A DNA stretch of 64,000 bases from assembly GCF_900104625.1 (NCBI RefSeq), contig NZ_FNVZ01000005.1, positions 434,001 to 498,000 of the forward strand, read 5' to 3'. Below the pieces are notes generated by a model. It was not told the DNA's origin and did no database searches. It saw nothing but the letters and a program-made list of their open reading frames with translations. The translations under genes and the position numbers were made by a program. This DNA comes from Leptotrichia massiliensis (lineage in GTDB: Bacteria; Fusobacteriota; Fusobacteriia; Fusobacteriales; Leptotrichiaceae). This document shows, piece after piece, positions 6,580 to 57,997 of this stretch (the first letter of the stretch is position 1; each line of letters opens with the position of its first letter).

Positions 6580-7957
6580 ATTTTACAATTTTTATTACTT
6601 TTTTCCAATCGATAGCTTTTACTAAAATAAAGAATATTATTCCAGCCAGTGTATTTGAAAATAAATTTCCCCAGAATATTGAATAAAGTCCAAAATATTT
6701 TTGTGTTAATAAAATAAAAATATATCTTAATAGCCAAATTCTTAAAACAGACATAACTAATGGAATTGTTGTTCTTCCAAGTGCTATAAAAACTCCTTGT
6801 GCTATCATAAAAATACTAAATCCAATTACTGAATAAGTATAAATATGGAGAGCTTTATCAGCAATTTCTATTACTTTTGGAACTTTTGTAAAAGTTAATA
6901 CGAGTGGTAATGAAATAGGCAGGATTAAGGCAATAGTCAAAATTGAAATAGTAACGCCAGTTATCCAGCCCACCTTGAACACATCCTTAGATTTTTTTAC
7001 ATTTCCAATTCCCATATTTATACTAATCATTGAGGAAACGGTGGTTCCTATTGAGGATGGTAAAATAAAGCAGATTGCATTGATATTGGAAGCAATTCCC
7101 TAAGCATTTAAGGCAACAGCTCCAAATTTTTCCATTTCCTTATTTATAAGAAAAAATCCAAGATACAAGAAGGCGTAATTTAACATTGAAGGAAATCCGA
7201 TTTTTAATAATCGTTTTATAATTGGCAATTTTATTGTGTAACTTCGTAAATTAAGTTTTATATCTCCACTTTTTAAAAATAAATCGTAAAACATCCAGAT
7301 TGTAACAACTATGTAAGAAAAAAGTGATGCCATTACTGCACCCACAATTCCCATTTTTAAAACATATAAAAAAATTGAATTAAAAATAATTTTTAAAATT
7401 AATAAAAGAAAAATTCTAACAAATGTAACCTCAGGACGTCCAATCGCATTTTTTGAAGAATTGTAAATGGCAGCCAAAAATACAAAAGGCATTACCAGTG
7501 AATAAAGGGAAATATAGATATAGACATTGTTACGAATTTCAGAGGTTGTGTTATTTGAAATTAAAAGAGCTGTAAACATACATATAGGAATTAGTAAAAG
7601 CCCAATAAAAAAACTGAATACAAAAATTTGTAGCATCGTTTCCTTTACCGCTAACATTCTTCCTTTACCGTAAAGTCTACCTATCATAACAAGTGTAGCC
7701 ACGCCAAGCCCCTGCGAAAATGCAATCATAATATTTAGTACAGGCTGACTAAATGTAACTGAACTGGCAATTTCTACACTTGTGAGTCTGTTTAGAAATA
7801 AACTGTCTGAGAGTGGGATAAGTGCTTGAATAATTCCGACCAGCAATGTTGGAATAGACAAAAAAAGTAAAGTATTAATAACTCTTCCATTAAAAAGTTT
7901 TCTTGGATAATTATTTATTTTTGCTTGTTTTTTCGCTATTTTAAATTTTCTAGACAT
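6578..7957 (-). pseudogene. MATE-family multidrug efflux protein interrupted by an in-frame amber codon
   Basis: Read on the minus strand, 7957-7103 encodes the first 285 residues of a MATE transporter (about seven membrane helices, with the family's IPTLLVGIIQALIPLSDSLF start). The frame then meets TAG at 7102-7100. It reads on in the same frame as Gly-Ile-Ala-Ser-Asn-Ile-Asn-Ala through the remaining helices to the stop at 6578. The two halves together give 458 residues, the normal MATE length, and the lesion sits inside the conserved segment that starts the second half. No base is gained or lost, so this is a nonsense substitution. TAG is used as a normal stop elsewhere (for example at 2102-2104). 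An internal ATG at 7030 could start the C-terminal half but would not make a working transporter. Confidence 0.88.
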
Positions 7958-8104
7958 TTTAATGTAAATTTTCTTATCAGTATGATTTTTTTATAAATAA
8001 TTTTTACTTGTGGGAAAATTAATTGTATGTTAAAATAAAAGGAGTCTAGAAATTAAAAAAATAAATTTAGATATTATTTTAATTATACTATCTAAGGAGT
8101 TAAA

Positions 8105-8899
8105 ATGAAACAAAAAAACATATTTTTAGAAGGATTAGATTCTTTTACGCTACATATTTTAGCTATTTCGTTTATGATATTAGATCATTCGTGGAATGTA
8201 TTTTTTGTTAATCAGAATCAGATATGGATGAATCTTTTAGGCAGGCTTGCCTTTCCTATTTTTGCCTTTATGCTTGTAGAGGGGTTTTATAAAACGAAGA
8301 ATAGGAGTAAATATTTAAAGCGTATTTTTATTTTTGCTGTTATTTCAGAAATACCTTTTAATCTTTTGGTAAGTACTTCTGTATTTGGGAGTCCATCGAT
8401 ATTTTTTCCATATAATAATGTTTTGTGGACTTTTGGGATTGCTTTATATATGCTAGTTTTGTTTGAAAAAATTAAAAATAAAGATAACTTACCTGTAACA
8501 GTAAAAATTTTTGGAAAAATTATTATAAGTATTTTAGCTATGTTTATTACACGCCTTATAGTTAGTGATTACCGAGAATATGGAATTATGATGGTTTTAG
8601 TATTTTATTTTTTCAGAAGTAAAAAATGGTGGAATTTTATAGCTCAAGTCATCTTATTAGCATGGATAAATATTTTTCTTATATGGGGATATAATGTTAC
8701 TTTAAACTGTTTTGGAAATGAAATAAATGTATCATCACAATCATTTGCAATATTTTCATTAGTTTTTATATGGCTCTACAATGGAAAGCAAGGTATTCAT
8801 AATAAAATTACAAAATATATGTTTTACAGTTTTTATCCATTACATCTTTTGTTAATTGTAATGATTTATATTTTTTTTAAGAAATACATCATTTATTGA
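8105..8899 (+). CDS. TraX family integral membrane protein
   Basis: 264 residues with about eight hydrophobic helices. The N-terminal pattern LDSFTLHILAISFMILDHSW, then LGRLAFPIFAFMLVEGFYKTKNRSKYLKRIF, is typical of the TraX family. Its namesake N-acetylates F pilin, but most chromosomal members are uncharacterised membrane acyltransferase-like proteins. There are no conjugation genes nearby, so pilin acetylation should not be assumed. AAGGAG at 8094-8099 gives a clear start at ATG 8105. It is divergent from the MATE pseudogene. Confidence 0.8.
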   Translation: MKQKNIFLEGLDSFTLHILAISFMILDHSWNVFFVNQNQIWMNLLGRLAFPIFAFMLVEGFYKTKNRSKYLKRIFIFAVISEIPFNLLVSTSVFGSPSIFFPYNNVLWTFGIALYMLVLFEKIKNKDNLPVTVKIFGKIIISILAMFITRLIVSDYREYGIMMVLVFYFFRSKKWWNFIAQVILLAWINIFLIWGYNVTLNCFGNEINVSSQSFAIFSLVFIWLYNGKQGIHNKITKYMFYSFYPLHLLLIVMIYIFFKKYIIY

Positions 8900-9005
8900 A
8901 CTAAATGATATAAGTATTGTAACAAAAAACGGATTTAATTATAAATTTATAGAAATTCCTAATAGTAAAATAGGGCGAAAGATTGGTATAGAAATATTTA
9001 ATTAA
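8898..9005 (+). pseudogene. Remnant of an unidentified gene (35-codon 3' fragment)
   Basis: Directly overlapping the traX-like stop, another frame (8898-9005) reads as a plausible protein tail. It starts Glu-Leu-Asn-Asp-Ile-Ser-Ile-Val and ends Gly-Ile-Glu-Ile-Phe-Asn before TAA 9003-9005. It has no start codon or ribosome site of its own and is followed at once by a terminator. It looks like the decayed 3' end of a deleted gene. I do not recognise the family. Confidence 0.35.
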
Positions 9006-9032
9006 AGGCTGGAATTTTTTTCAGTCTTTTTT
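9004..9032 (+). terminator. Rho-independent terminator after the traX-like gene and gene remnant
   Basis: AAAGGCTG (9004-9011) pairs with CAGTCTTT (9022-9029, one G-T pair) and runs into a T tract to 9032. Confidence 0.7.
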
Positions 9033-9095
9033 GTATGGTGAAAGGCATAACCCTATAAAAAAATAACTTTAATTTTATAAATTTTTTGATTTCTG

Positions 9096-9125
9096 CTCTT
9101 TAAATGGGAAATAGTATAAAATGGA
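9096..9125 (+). repeat. Solo right end of the dispersed TIR repeat
   Basis: CTTTAAATGGGAAATAGTATAAAATGG resembles the right terminus of the repeat copies at 33.3-33.7 and 34.8-35.1 kb (TTTAAATGG.G.TTAGTAT form). The rest of the 8900-9213 gap holds the gene remnant and terminator listed above and a -10-like TATAAT at 9144-9149 ahead of the lipoprotein gene. Confidence 0.4.
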
Positions 9126-9213
9126 ATATAAACAAAAATGAGGTATAATATTATTGTATAAAATTTAAAATATAAATTTTGTTAATACTGAAAAAATATA
9201 GAAAGGGCAAGTT

Positions 9214-10227
9214 ATGAAAAAGATAATTTTAATTTTGATAAGTGTATTATTTTTAGTGAGCTGTAGTGGGGATATCCCCTTCTCGGAGGAGGAAAAAGGA
9301 GCTTTAAAAAAGGCAAAAACGGAAATTGCTGAAATGAAGAAAAAACCGACAATGGCAGAAAAGGAAAGAATTTTGCAAAAGGGACTAGAAGTTCAGAAAA
9401 AATATTTACGAATTGGGGTAGTGTATTTTAAAAGTGTGGAAAAGGATATTCCAATAGCAGATTATTATCTAGCAAGAAACTATAGTGCGAGAGGGGAAAA
9501 AGAAAAGGCACTCAAATGGGCAAGAAAAGGCTCGGACAGAGGAGTGAAGGAAGCAAGTGCATTTGCAGGACAGATTTATGCTAATCAGAGAGATGAAATG
9601 AATGCAAGAAAATATTATATAAAGGCAATGGATCAGGGAGATTATAGTGAAGATACATTGTTTAGAGTGTGGGTATATGGAGAAAGGAAAGAAATTAATA
9701 GCGAAGTGGTGGAAGCATTTAAAAGAAATTTAAATAAAAATATTGAGGTAAAAAATGCTTTGGCTTTTTATTATCAGAGGCACGATTACTTTGATGAAGC
9801 TGAAAAACTCTACAAGGAGCTTGTTAATGAAAAATATCCGAATGCAGAAAGACTTTTAGGGGAACTTTATATGTGGAAAAAAGATTATGACAAAGCTGAA
9901 GAATGGTTATTAAAAGAATCGGAAAAATTATTTTCACATTCAGAAGACAATGTGAAACGGATTGAAGAAAAAAGAGCAAGATTATTGCGTCTGTTAGCAG
10001 AAGTTTATGAAATGAAAGGAGATTACGGCAAGGCTGAAAATAGTCTTTTAAAAGCAAAAGAACTTGCACATAAGGAACTTGCATTAACGAGTTTAGCCAA
10101 ATTATATGAAAAGCAAGGGAAATATAATCAAGCTTTGAAAATAAATGAAGAATTAGAAGAATTGGAAAAAATAGAAAAACAGAAAAAATTAAATCATAAA
10201 AGAAATAAAAAATGGAGAGTTTTATGA
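9214..10227 (+). CDS. TPR-repeat lipoprotein
   Basis: 337 residues. The N-terminus MKKIILILISVLFLVSC is a type II signal peptide with lipobox LVSC (Cys17), so the protein should be lipidated and envelope-anchored. From about residue 60 on it is built of TPR/Sel1-like helical repeats (for example ADYYLARNYSARGEKEKALKWARKG and the later DYGKAENSLLKAKELAHKELALTSLAKLYEKQGKYNQAL). The likely role is a periplasmic scaffold; the partner is unknown. GAAAGG precedes ATG 9214. The stop overlaps the start of the next gene in an ATGA arrangement, so they are translationally coupled. Confidence 0.8.
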   Translation: MKKIILILISVLFLVSCSGDIPFSEEEKGALKKAKTEIAEMKKKPTMAEKERILQKGLEVQKKYLRIGVVYFKSVEKDIPIADYYLARNYSARGEKEKALKWARKGSDRGVKEASAFAGQIYANQRDEMNARKYYIKAMDQGDYSEDTLFRVWVYGERKEINSEVVEAFKRNLNKNIEVKNALAFYYQRHDYFDEAEKLYKELVNEKYPNAERLLGELYMWKKDYDKAEEWLLKESEKLFSHSEDNVKRIEEKRARLLRLLAEVYEMKGDYGKAENSLLKAKELAHKELALTSLAKLYEKQGKYNQALKINEELEELEKIEKQKKLNHKRNKKWRVL

Positions 10228-53022: not shown

Positions 53023-55039
53023 TTACAATTCTCCACCACCTCCACCGCCAGAACCTCCGCCACTGTAGCCGTTGCCCTTGGAGTAACCGCTGCCACCACT
53101 GCTATAGCCGCTTCCTGAACCACTGAATGAAGAAGAGGCTGAACTTCTTGAATCTTTATACGAAGAAGAATATGATTCCCTAATTTTTACTTTCATTTCT
53201 TCTTTTCTCGAATATGCATACAAACTATTAAGTTCTTTTAGCATTTCGTCATTTCTTGTTAGACTTGAATTAATTTCGATTGTCTTTTCCATCAGTTTTA
53301 TAGCTTGATTTTGTACATTCAAAGCTACTGCGTAGGGTAAAATTCCTTTAAAATATTTTACTAGCTCCTCAGTACTGTCAAATTTTTTTATCTGATTTTC
53401 TTCAGCGGTTTTTATATACATTTTTAAACCTTCGATATATTCTTTTTTTCGTAAACCTTCTTCAGAATATATTTGAAAATTACGTGAATAAAGTGCATTG
53501 GCAACTAATAACAAAATAAATACTGCTGCAATTAAAAAATTTTTATCTGAATACATTTCGTTTATTATGCTAAAAATCATTATCCATTTCAGAATAGTTA
53601 ATATTTTTCCTAATAAATTTTTTTGCAAAAATTTTTTATTTCCTGACATTATACGATAAAAATAAACTAAAGCTATAATAATAGTACCAAATATTATTGC
53701 AGTTAATATATTTACTATAATAGATGAAATGTTTACCACGTTTCCATTATATGTAATTACAAGATAGCCAATAATAATAGCAGATAAAGGGATTAAATAA
53801 TAAAAATCTTTATTTTCACAAAGTTTATTATATCTTTTAAAAAAAATGTTAATAATATTATTTTTAGGTTGATCTGATATTACAAATTTATTTTCTTTTT
53901 TTTCTAAAGCTTTAAAAAGTTTTTTTTCTTCCTCGTAAAGTTCACCATTAGAAAAATTTTGAATGGTATCATCATTAGGTTTGTCTGATATAGTAAATTT
54001 TTCTCCCATTTTTTCTTTCTTTTTCTTTAATTTTTTTAAGGCTTGTTCTTTATCTTTTAAATTTTCTTCTTTTTTCTCAAAATGTTGTTTTTTTTGAGAA
54101 TTTTGTATTTTAATATCTTTGCACAAAAGCGAAAAAATTCCTGTACTAATTATTTTTTTCTCATCATCCTGATTTACGAAATAGGAAACAAACATTGCAG
54201 ACATATCATCTGGAATTTCAAATTCGGGTATAATTGTTTTTTTGGAAGGCTGTTTTAAAACTGTGAGTTTTGTAATTAACATAAGAATTAACGATACAAA
54301 GGAAAGTATTAAACTGAAGGTTAGATTTTTTGAGGTTGTAAAAAATAGTTTTAATTTATCCGAAAAACTTGGAGATATTTTATCTGTTTTTAAATTTAAA
54401 AGAAATGTAATTCCTTCTTGAGGTGCTAATGGTTTTTGGTTTGTAAATTTTATTTCTCCATTTTCCTGTAAAATTTTATAATTTTTTTCGTTTATTCCTG
54501 CTTTGCCTGTATAAATCTCAAATTTTTTAATTTCTTCATTTGTTATTGGTTGACCATCAGAAAATTTTATTGTAACATTAGCTTTTTCTATTGGAACTTT
54601 CCAGAATTGTGGTATTATATTGAAATATATTTGTTGAATATCTTCATGTTTAAAAATATCAGTATACATAGTATAAGTTATTTCATATATATTTTTAAGC
54701 TGTGTTATTTTTTTGTCTTTTGAACCGATTTTTATTCGAAGTCCTTCATCAAACTCTTCATACGTATGTTTTACTTTTTGCCCATTCATTGTTACAGAAT
54801 TTATTTTAATAAGGCTTTTTTTTTAAGTTTTCTTTATCTTTTTTTCTTAAAAGAATATCTCTAAAAATGCCCCTATGATTTAAATCGGCGAACTCATATT
54901 CTATTTTTTCTGTAATTGTCAATGATGATTCTTTATTTATGTTCATTACGACATCATAATTTTTTATAGTAGAACCATTTATAATTATAGAAAAAATTAA
55001 AATTGTTATTATAAAAATAATTTTTGTTATTTTTTTCAT
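53023..55039 (-). pseudogene. DUF2207 predicted membrane protein, split by a frameshift in a homopolymer
   Basis: Minus strand 55039-54806 codes for a signal peptide and the first DUF2207 unit (STIKNYDVVMNINKESSLTITEKIEYEFADLNHRGIFRDI), then ends in LKKKPY at TAA. The rest (frame of 54789-53023, 588 residues from its first ATG) has the C-terminal membrane helices and the Gly/Ser-rich tail (SGSGSGYSSGGSGYSKGNG) of the family. The reading shifts at a run of nine A (T on plus, 54816-54824). With eight A the frame goes on as Lys-Lys-Ser-Leu-Ile-Lys-Ile-Asn-Ser-Val into the second part, giving about 670 residues. It could be a disrupted gene, a phase-variable one, or a sequencing error. Confidence 0.82.
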
Positions 55040-55094
55040 ACAAGTACCTCTTTATTTGTGTTTCTTAATAATAATGTTAATAGCTTTTTTAAGT

Positions 55095-55123
55095 AAAAAG
55101 CAGGTTTTGAGTCCCCGCTTTTC
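55095..55123 (-). terminator. Hairpin in the gap before the DUF2207 gene
   Basis: On the minus strand AAAAGCGGG pairs with CCTGCTTTT around an eight-base loop, with a T run after it. It may end the transcript from the DKNYY gene upstream. The rest of the 369-base gap 55040-55408 has no gene; it holds the 17-base string (55334-55350) shared with 56614-56630. Confidence 0.5.
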
Positions 55124-55408
55124 TGATAGAGTAACGTAAATAATGTTAATATGTTTTAATTTCATTTGTTATTTCAAGTAACATTAATCAATTCTATTGT
55201 TCAAATTTAAAGAATTTAAATTTTATTAGGTTATTGTGAATAGTTTTGAGTTTGTTTTCAAATATTGTAATTGTGAATAAGTATAATATGTTTTTTGTAT
55301 TTTTCTTTTTCAATTGTATATTAGCATGTAGATATTAAAGAAAAATGAGAGTTTGTAAATTTTGTAATAGAATTGTAAATCAATAAATTTAGAAATTGAT
55401 AGATAATC

Positions 55409-55924
55409 TTATTTGTTTTGATAGTATTTAACACAAGAATTTAAAGTATCGTCTTTTTCCATTCTTGCCCCTTTATAGAAAACGCCATTTTTATCTCTGG
55501 CACAGATGGAGTCAGTTGCTTCAAAAGACTCATAATCAGCATCATCAATTAGTGCTTCTTTGAAGAAAATATAATTTTTATCTTTGGAATAAGGACCATT
55601 ATTTAACAGTTTAAAAGTTTTGACATCAGCCCCTTTTATTTTCTGTCCTTTAAAGAATACATTTCTTTTGTCAATGTAAAAAAGGCCTGCATCATTAATT
55701 TCCTTAAAAGTTTCAGGATTAGCATCGTCAATTTTTTCCCCATAATAATAAACATTGCTTTTATCTTTAGAATATTCATAGTTAATCTCTTTAAAAGTCT
55801 TAGCATCTGCTCCTTTGATTATTTTTTCTTTAAAGTAAACTTTATTATTTTTTATTGAATAATCAGCGAATAACTGCACTCCTACTAATAAAATCACAAT
55901 TACAAATAATAACACTTTTTTCAT
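55409..55924 (-). CDS. Exported DKNYY-family protein (small)
   Basis: 171 residues, signal peptide about 1-20 (ending LFA). Four repeats of the kind YSKDKSNVYYYGEKIDDANPETFKEIN and KNYIFFKEALIDDADYESFE, the same family as the two genes at 15-17 kb. Ends with a possible disulfide Cys (NSCVKYYQNK). GAAAGGAGGTAG precedes the start. Function unknown. Confidence 0.82.
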   Translation of the reverse strand: MKKVLLFVIVILLVGVQLFADYSIKNNKVYFKEKIIKGADAKTFKEINYEYSKDKSNVYYYGEKIDDANPETFKEINDAGLFYIDKRNVFFKGQKIKGADVKTFKLLNNGPYSKDKNYIFFKEALIDDADYESFEATDSICARDKNGVFYKGARMEKDDTLNSCVKYYQNK

Positions 55925-56148
55925 ATTGAACTACCTCCTTTCTTCATTTATTTCTACAAATTTTCAACTTTTAATTTAACTTAATCTTTATTATAAATTA
56001 TACCTTATATTTTATAGAAGTCTAGATTTTTCCTTATTTAAAAAAATAATTTTTAAAAAATAATAATTGAAAATTTTTAATTTTTAAGATATGATATTTT
56101 TATATTATTTATACGAGAAATTTAAGGAAAAGAAATATGTTTTGGAAA

Positions 56149-56171
56149 AGCAGGTAATTTAATCACCTGCT
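56149..56171 (-). terminator. Hairpin after the small exported protein
   Basis: AGCAGGT (56149-56155) / ACCTGCT (56165-56171), a perfect seven-base stem. On the minus strand it is followed by TTTTCC. It is a probable terminator of the gene ending at 56231. Confidence 0.45.
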
Positions 56172-56230
56172 CTTTATAAATTTAAAGTATTGATTTGTCG
56201 ACAGCATAATTTTTTATACTTTCATTTTTA

Positions 56231-56503
56231 TTAATATAGATATTCGTATGATGTTAAATATAAATTTTTGTATCCTTGTCCATTGAAATAAAGCTTGTAA
56301 ACTTCTCCTAGATCCAAATTGCTTCTAGTTCTATAGTTTACTCTTGTAAAATTAAAGTGTCTTCCAGATTCTAAACTTACACAGTTTACATATCCTACTC
56401 CATTTCTATAAGTTCCTTTGGAAGTAATTTCACATTGTTCGATAAATCTTGAAAAACTTAAAGCACTAAATAATAAAAACATAGAAATTAAAATCTTTTT
56501 CAT
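56231..56503 (-). CDS. Unknown small exported protein
   Basis: 90 residues: signal peptide about 1-18 (MKKILISMFLLFSALSFS), then a mature part of about 72 residues, basic, with two Cys (EQCEITSK and YVNCVSLE) that could form a disulfide, and a Tyr-rich end (FNGQGYKNLYLTSYEYLY). The family is not recognised. TTAGGAGTGA precedes the start. Confidence 0.55.
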   Translation of the reverse strand: MKKILISMFLLFSALSFSRFIEQCEITSKGTYRNGVGYVNCVSLESGRHFNFTRVNYRTRSNLDLGEVYKLYFNGQGYKNLYLTSYEYLY

Positions 56504-56704
56504 AATAAATCACTCCTAAAATATAATTATTATAATGTAAACAATTTATTGTTTTAAATATAATTTTTTATTATGCCTTATCTTTCTTTTCAAGTTAATC
56601 ATATCATATAAACATTAAAGAAAAATGAGAATTTTTAATTTTATCTTTTAAATATTAAAATTAATTATTTTTGTAAAAATTAAAAAAATAATGATTTGCC
56701 ATTA

Positions 56705-56733
56705 TTGATAAAACTTTGAAAATATAGTATAAT
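56705..56733 (+). promoter_or_regulatory. Predicted promoter of the carAB operon with a long leader
   Basis: TTGATA (56705-56710), 17 bases, TATAAT (56728-56733). The leader to carA is about 160 bases. I found no clear PyrR-binding element, attenuator hairpin with T tract, or known riboswitch in it. The rest of the gap 56504-56899 holds no gene. Confidence 0.6.
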
Positions 56734-56899
56734 TATGAGATTAGAGATGTTAGTAAATACATTCAGACTTTTATTAATAAATACATATCTAGGATTTGAA
56801 TTAAAATAGTTTACTATTATCGCAAATCAGACACGTTAATGACAATTGAACAAATTTTAAAACAAATAGTATCATTTAAAATTTAGGGAGGTAGTATTT

Positions 56900-57997
56900 A
56901 TGTACGCATTGGATAAACAGCTTGTTTTGGAAGATGGTAGTGTGTATAAGGGGTATGGATTTGGAGCAGATGTGGAAATGGCTGGGGAAGTTGTTTTTAA
57001 TACTGCGATGACTGGGTATCAGGAAACTATTTCAGATCCATCGTATAATGGGCAGATTATTACATTTACTTATCCGTTAATTGGAAATTATGGGATAAAT
57101 AGGGATGATTATGAAACTATTAATCCAAGTATTAAGGGAATCATAACTCGTGAAATATGTAGAAAACCTTCTAATTTTAGAAATGAATTTACATTGGATG
57201 AAGTTTTGAAGGATTTGAATATTCCAGGAATTTCTGGAATTGATACACGTAGTCTGACAAAGAAGATAAGAGAGCATGGAACGATTAAGGGAATTATCGT
57301 TAGTGCAGACAAAGATCCGCAAGAAATTGCAGAAAATTTAAAAATCAATTCGTTGCCAACCAATCAAATCGAACAGGTATCGACAAAAAAGGCATTTCTT
57401 TCATCTGGAAGAGGGATGAGAGTTGTTCTGCTTGATTTAGGTATGAAATCAGGAATTATGAGGGAACTTAACTCAAGGGACTGTGATATTGTCGTAATGC
57501 CACATAATGCAACTTCTAAAGAAATTTTAAGACAAAAACCAGATGGAATAATGTTAAGCAATGGGCCGGGAGATCCGACAGATGTTCCAGAAACAATTGC
57601 TACAATTAGGGAATTAATAGATAAAGTGCCAATTTTTGGAATTTGCATGGGACATCAGCTAATTTCACTTGCCTGTGGAGCAAAGACATATAAATTGCTA
57701 TTCGGACATCGTGGGGCAAATCAGCCAGTATTAAACCTACAAACTGGAAAAGTTGATATTACAGCACAAAATCATGGATATGCTGTAGATATTGATTCTT
57801 TGAAGGATACAGAGCTGGAATTAACACATATTGCAGTAAATGACAGAACCTGCGAAGGTGTAAGACATAAAAAATATCCAGTATTTTCGGTACAGTATCA
57901 TCCAGAGGCTTCTCCAGGACCACATGACCCGAATTATTTATTTGATATATTTATTGAAAATATGAAAAAGAATCGGAATTTTGAATACGTCGAATAA
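56900..57997 (+). CDS. carA: Carbamoyl-phosphate synthase small (glutaminase) subunit
   Basis: 365 residues. The N-terminal domain begins LVLEDGSVYKGYGFGADVEMAGEVVFNTAMTGYQETISDPSY; the class I amidotransferase domain has the nucleophile Cys249 in FGICMGHQL and the His-Glu pair in VQYHPEASPGP. It hydrolyses glutamine and feeds ammonia to CarB for pyrimidine and arginine synthesis. AGGGAGGTAG precedes ATG 56900. It forms an operon with carB (80 bases apart). Confidence 0.97.
   Translation: MYALDKQLVLEDGSVYKGYGFGADVEMAGEVVFNTAMTGYQETISDPSYNGQIITFTYPLIGNYGINRDDYETINPSIKGIITREICRKPSNFRNEFTLDEVLKDLNIPGISGIDTRSLTKKIREHGTIKGIIVSADKDPQEIAENLKINSLPTNQIEQVSTKKAFLSSGRGMRVVLLDLGMKSGIMRELNSRDCDIVVMPHNATSKEILRQKPDGIMLSNGPGDPTDVPETIATIRELIDKVPIFGICMGHQLISLACGAKTYKLLFGHRGANQPVLNLQTGKVDITAQNHGYAVDIDSLKDTELELTHIAVNDRTCEGVRHKKYPVFSVQYHPEASPGPHDPNYLFDIFIENMKKNRNFEYVE

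Follow-up and report, generated by a model that had tools for sequence, protein, structure and literature searches.

Genes whose reading frame hangs on a run of a single base have been described in several systems, and these provide the closest comparisons for the locus studied here. In homopolymer contingency genes the length of the run sets the frame, as at our locus; their tracts, however, vary in populations, whereas the run studied here is unshared by homologues and known from one sequence. In tssM1 of Citrobacter rodentium, a poly-A run shortly before a premature stop likewise divides one protein gene, and rescue of ~20% is reported on 11 A; there, added A restore the frame (PMC4256274), whereas one A more than the nine of our run leads into a stop. 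The M.HaeIII gene resembles our case in that A were added to an eight-A run: with one or two more A, clear activity was kept in E. coli, bypass having yielded active enzyme (PMC3812077)—though that gene sat on a plasmid in E. coli under laboratory drift, and ours is known from sequence alone. For Thermus dnaX, strong slippage is described on nine A, which is also the length named for many genomes (PMC1088944). According to other reports, RNA polymerase slippage at A/T runs of E. coli and Buchnera more often inserts bases than drops them, 80% of the insertions being of a single base (PMC5574713), and ribosomes slide little on A9 but much on A11 in vitro (PMC4363877).

Within the DUF2207 family itself, SMU.243 of S. 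mutans also had an apparently broken 5′ part, its annotation being ~200 residues short (i.e., the N-terminus was missing) through sequence errors; there, unlike here, the error was proven by Sanger sequencing, and deletion of the gene made the bacterium less tolerant of acid and peroxide and diminished its biofilm (PMC10457818).

Here we analyze a split DUF2207 gene in a stretch of 64,000 nucleotides from Leptotrichia massiliensis (“the window”). The reading that we favor, at a probability of roughly one half, is that a recent one-base slip made an accessory, redundant DUF2207 membrane-protein gene a leaky null allele.

Results

A Nine-A Run Splits One DUF2207 Gene

Direct reading of the sequence places nine A roughly 72 codons into a DUF2207 gene on the minus strand, where they split the gene into two frames (Table 1). 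The upstream ORF, with AGAGG (which we take to be Shine–Dalgarno-like) ahead of its ATG, stops 10 bases past the run. No Shine–Dalgarno-like sequence was found ahead of the first ATG of the downstream ORF, whose hydrophobicity profile indicates several hydrophobic or membrane segments and whose tail is rich in Gly and Ser. The gene belongs to DUF2207 by both Pfam cut-offs: PF09972 (DUF2207) reaches 32.5 bits in the first half and 40.5 bits in the second (cut-off 24.4), and PF20990 (DUF2207_C) reaches 64.6 bits in the second (cut-off 33), with the two halves covering complementary parts of the PF09972 profile.

Table 1. Positions of the features at the split DUF2207 gene within the window.
Feature	Position	Strand	Basis
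Nine-A run at frame break of DUF2207 gene	54816..54824	-	Direct reading; one-base gap vs. orthologue
First half: 77-aa ORF, hydrophobic N-terminus and start of DUF2207 domain	54806..55039	-	ORF list, PF09972 profile 1–49, hydrophobicity
Second half, counted from first ATG: 588-aa ORF, rest of DUF2207 and DUF2207_C	53023..54789	-	ORF list, PF09972 55–169, PF20990, hydrophobicity
A-AAA-AAG heptamer, zero frame of upstream ORF	54815..54821	-	Direct reading

In a protein alignment with 39 homologous ORFs, the two halves abut with zero gap at the break. At the DNA level, the sole gap in the stretch shared with the nearest orthologue (in genome G001) is one base, at the run. Because the halves jointly match this intact 612-aa orthologue, the split gene is more than a chance arrangement. 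The original prediction had claimed that the halves of one protein lie in different frames around the run and that eight A would yield one continuous protein; both points are confirmed. A single frame is restored by one A fewer (eight), as had been proposed, and equally by two more (eleven).

Relatives, Locus and Family Copies

With the second half as query, matches were obtained in 38 of 60 genomes (own genome included), and among the 12 other genomes of the same genus only the G001 copy was clearly nearer than paralogues (64%, best segment). This orthologue is intact and occupies the same place: the upstream gene, presumably carA-like, is 94% identical, and the downstream LprI gene and three more match in order. 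At the run site, G001 has six A followed by GAG, i.e., the run is interrupted. Nine A within 66 bases around the site occur in none of the 39 homologous ORFs. Their alignment comprises ORFs longer than 450 aa, excludes the copies from the window itself (L001, L004) and contains, in a few rows, truncated versions of a single gene that is present in overlapping loci. Three of the 39 carry eight A a few codons upstream of the site; the tract is not kept in homologues as a contingency tract would be. The broken site had no match in viral contigs or plasmid collections, and a scan of genome contigs returned one distant DUF2207 only (28%). Among the matches listed, no paper had phase variation in Leptotrichia as its topic by title.

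The interval between the carA-like and DUF2207 genes (55040–56900) differs between the two genomes, with a DKNYY gene and a 90-aa ORF in the window and a 351-aa gene in G001 (L035:6848–8857), while patches of its intergenic DNA still align. The 351-aa gene is zinc-ribbon-like from its cysteine motifs, its Pfam matches being weak and below cut-off. Though absent from the window, it has a 67% relative at another place in the own genome (C5:1628070), and relatives were detected in 11 of the 13 genomes of the genus, this one among them, so that the loss of an operon partner carries little weight as a sign of decay.

The own genome holds two other full-length DUF2207 genes, as well as C-terminal paralogues beside LemA (C5:1556–1568 kb, L036). 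DUF2207 copies seem to undergo high turnover within the genus. A paralogue in genome G008 (L039:3794–4715, minus strand) has its match spread over two frames and looks broken, and of a copy in G006 (L044:4240–4540, plus strand) N- and C-terminal fragments of the full-length gene remain.

Age of the Break and Constraint

A simple pairwise Nei–Gojobori count of the window against G001 gives a dN/dS of 0.27 for the 71 codons ahead of the run and of 0.41 for the 533 codons past it (0.28 over the first 220, 0.49 over the remainder); the corresponding dS values are 0.66 and 0.71. That dN/dS stays under 1 both before and after the run is evidence of past constraint; the gene was thus useful until recently, and may still be. 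The downstream frame is stop-free over 597 codons. In a neutral simulation (n = 2000; substitutions only, base bias assumed), the first stop arose at a median of 10 substitutions, and in 95% of replicates within 42, or 0.0235 per site. That the long frame is still clean, against the early first stop expected under neutral drift, argues for a recent break. If the window lineage accumulated ~0.35 substitutions per site (half of dS), any loss of constraint would fall within about the final 7% of lineage time. A single lesion of recent date is compatible with a fresh slip, an error, a switch and a rescued gene alike. The clean long frame and single lesion argue against an old pseudogene, a reading that was dropped, and the further decay that the original prediction had named as its refuting case was not seen at this gene.

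A Runs in the Genome and Assembly Quality

Run statistics were drawn from the window plus 20 stretches of 20 kb on the same contig (L045–L064), i.e., 464 kb at 29% G+C, with greedy ORFs as gene models. Long A runs as such are common in it: the sample contains 29 A/T runs of at least nine, of which 14 lie inside gene models. Eight proteins with in-frame runs of this length were scanned against Pfam; six had families above cut-off (RimM, alanine racemase, methyltransferase, TPR protein, HicB-like antitoxin and glycosyltransferase) and two did not. Since the genes for RimM and alanine racemase carry in-frame runs of the same length, a nine-A run alone is no mark of a switch. When synonymous codons were shuffled in 385 ORFs, exactly nine A were expected 47 times and at least nine A 75 times, against 12 observed in each case, whereas eight-A runs were near expectation (157 observed, 170.5 expected). 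The ratio of runs of at least nine to runs of eight was also lower in gene models (14:183) than outside (15:57; p = 0.003), the DUF2207 run being scored as outside because its ORF is <80 aa. Such avoidance of long A runs in genes is as expected if these runs slip, and its strength for nine-A runs suggests that they cost the organism something. By far the longest run in the sample, 21 A (L063:14792–14812), lies outside gene models.

Runs of at least seven with coding-like flanks on both sides number 458 in the 464 kb, and the frame changes at five of them, in a test that uses 150-base flanks and detects only runs flanked by coding-like sequence on both sides. Four of the five are normal ends or starts of adjacent genes (L062, L063, L064, L048); the fifth is the DUF2207 run. 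By this test, the 400 kb sampled beyond the window contain no second gene broken at a run of at least seven, and run errors are therefore not abundant in the assembly. An error-ridden assembly was accordingly rejected as an explanation, the four other frame changes being ordinary gene ends. As a separate observation, L048 carries a 648-aa ORF (6737–8683, plus strand), presumably PAAR/Hint-like from its look, with a possible immunity gene next to it (8704–9780).

Read-Through Routes

The long frame can be reached from nine A by the loss of one A or the gain of two; one added A leads to a stop. Heptamers such as A-AAA-AAG are a type of −1 ribosomal slippery site. From this one, the −1 frame soon reaches a stop rather than the long frame, for which a slip of two back or one forward would be needed. 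No stable structure was found downstream of the run (z = 0.72; stability equalled or exceeded in 146 of 200 shuffles). A dnaX-type −1 ribosomal frameshift was therefore rejected: the heptamer is in frame, but it leads to a stop and no structure follows. The run does have the length associated with transcriptional slippage (≥9 A or T), although the common slip, one added base, does not give the second product here. Some leak of full-length protein is likely, and useful expression from the nine-A allele is possible but unsupported.

Discussion

The favored reading—a leaky null allele made by a recent slip—draws on the single lesion, the intact syntenic orthologue, the lack of nine A in all 39 homologous ORFs, the recent date, the redundant and decayed paralogues, and the avoidance of long A runs in genes. 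Specifically, an eight-A run would have arisen in the window lineage, at a site where the relative has an interrupted run, and replication slippage would recently have added one A. The added A would split the gene after codon 74 and leave the 77-aa stub as main product, and hence a near-null allele, while a little full-length protein may escape via polymerase or ribosome slips. The extra A could drop out again at the normal slippage rate, such reversal occurring by chance only. This account takes the extra A to be really present in the cell, replication slippage to be its probable source and the stub to be presumably without function; nothing indicates that selection shaped the run into a purpose-built switch. 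Against it stand the dN/dS values, which are under 1 for both halves and suit a gene that may still be useful, and the fact that a sequencing error would look identical. The allele may also be less null than proposed, given the strong bypass described for A added to an eight-A run in E. coli (PMC3812077).

An error of sequencing or assembly, such that the cell has eight A and an intact gene, is in our view unlikely, yet it deserves serious weight. A single base is at issue, it belongs to a run as long as any that genes here contain, there is no other lesion, and the mis-annotated S. mutans gene supplies a precedent within the family (PMC10457818); the assembly sampled outside the window, however, contains no second gene broken in this way. 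Improbable, by comparison with the favored reading, is a productive use of the run, in which RNA polymerase skips one A or inserts two extra, or the ribosome slips two back or one forward, to yield useful full-length protein. The downstream frame has been kept clean, and M.HaeIII (PMC3812077), Thermus dnaX (PMC1088944) and tssM1 (PMC4256274) provide reported precedents, but the single insertions described as dominant at A/T runs lead to a stop here (PMC5574713), ribosome sliding on A9 is reported to be little in vitro (PMC4363877), and the run is neither followed by structure nor conserved. Both routes that would come to mind most readily, i.e., the usual RNA polymerase slip (one added A) and the −1 ribosomal heptamer, miss the right frame.

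The original prediction of phase variation or slippage stands in part. A frame break at an A run is present and its origin by slippage is well supported, but the proposed on/off switch found no support: the run is missing in relatives, and housekeeping genes contain in-frame runs just as long. That the run evolved as a contingency tract switching the protein on and off thus seems to us quite improbable. In its favor, the break falls close to the 5′ end of a gene for a membrane protein, a change of one base would reopen the frame, no more decay is seen, and the DUF2207 gene evolves fast; against it, none of the 39 homologous ORFs shares nine A at this position, and the 14 A/T runs of nine that lie inside gene models in the 464 kb, some of them in RimM and alanine racemase, indicate that such runs are not reserved for switches. 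We likewise give a low probability to a real slippage device of any kind (RNA slip, two-base ribosome slip or replication slippage) by which the cell would make this fast-evolving DUF2207 envelope protein in small or switchable amounts.

The case serves mainly as a caution: in a genome of this low G+C content (29%), a reading frame broken at nine A can readily be mistaken for a switch. If a switch or a rescue were nonetheless true, the DUF2207 envelope protein would join the slippage-controlled genes.
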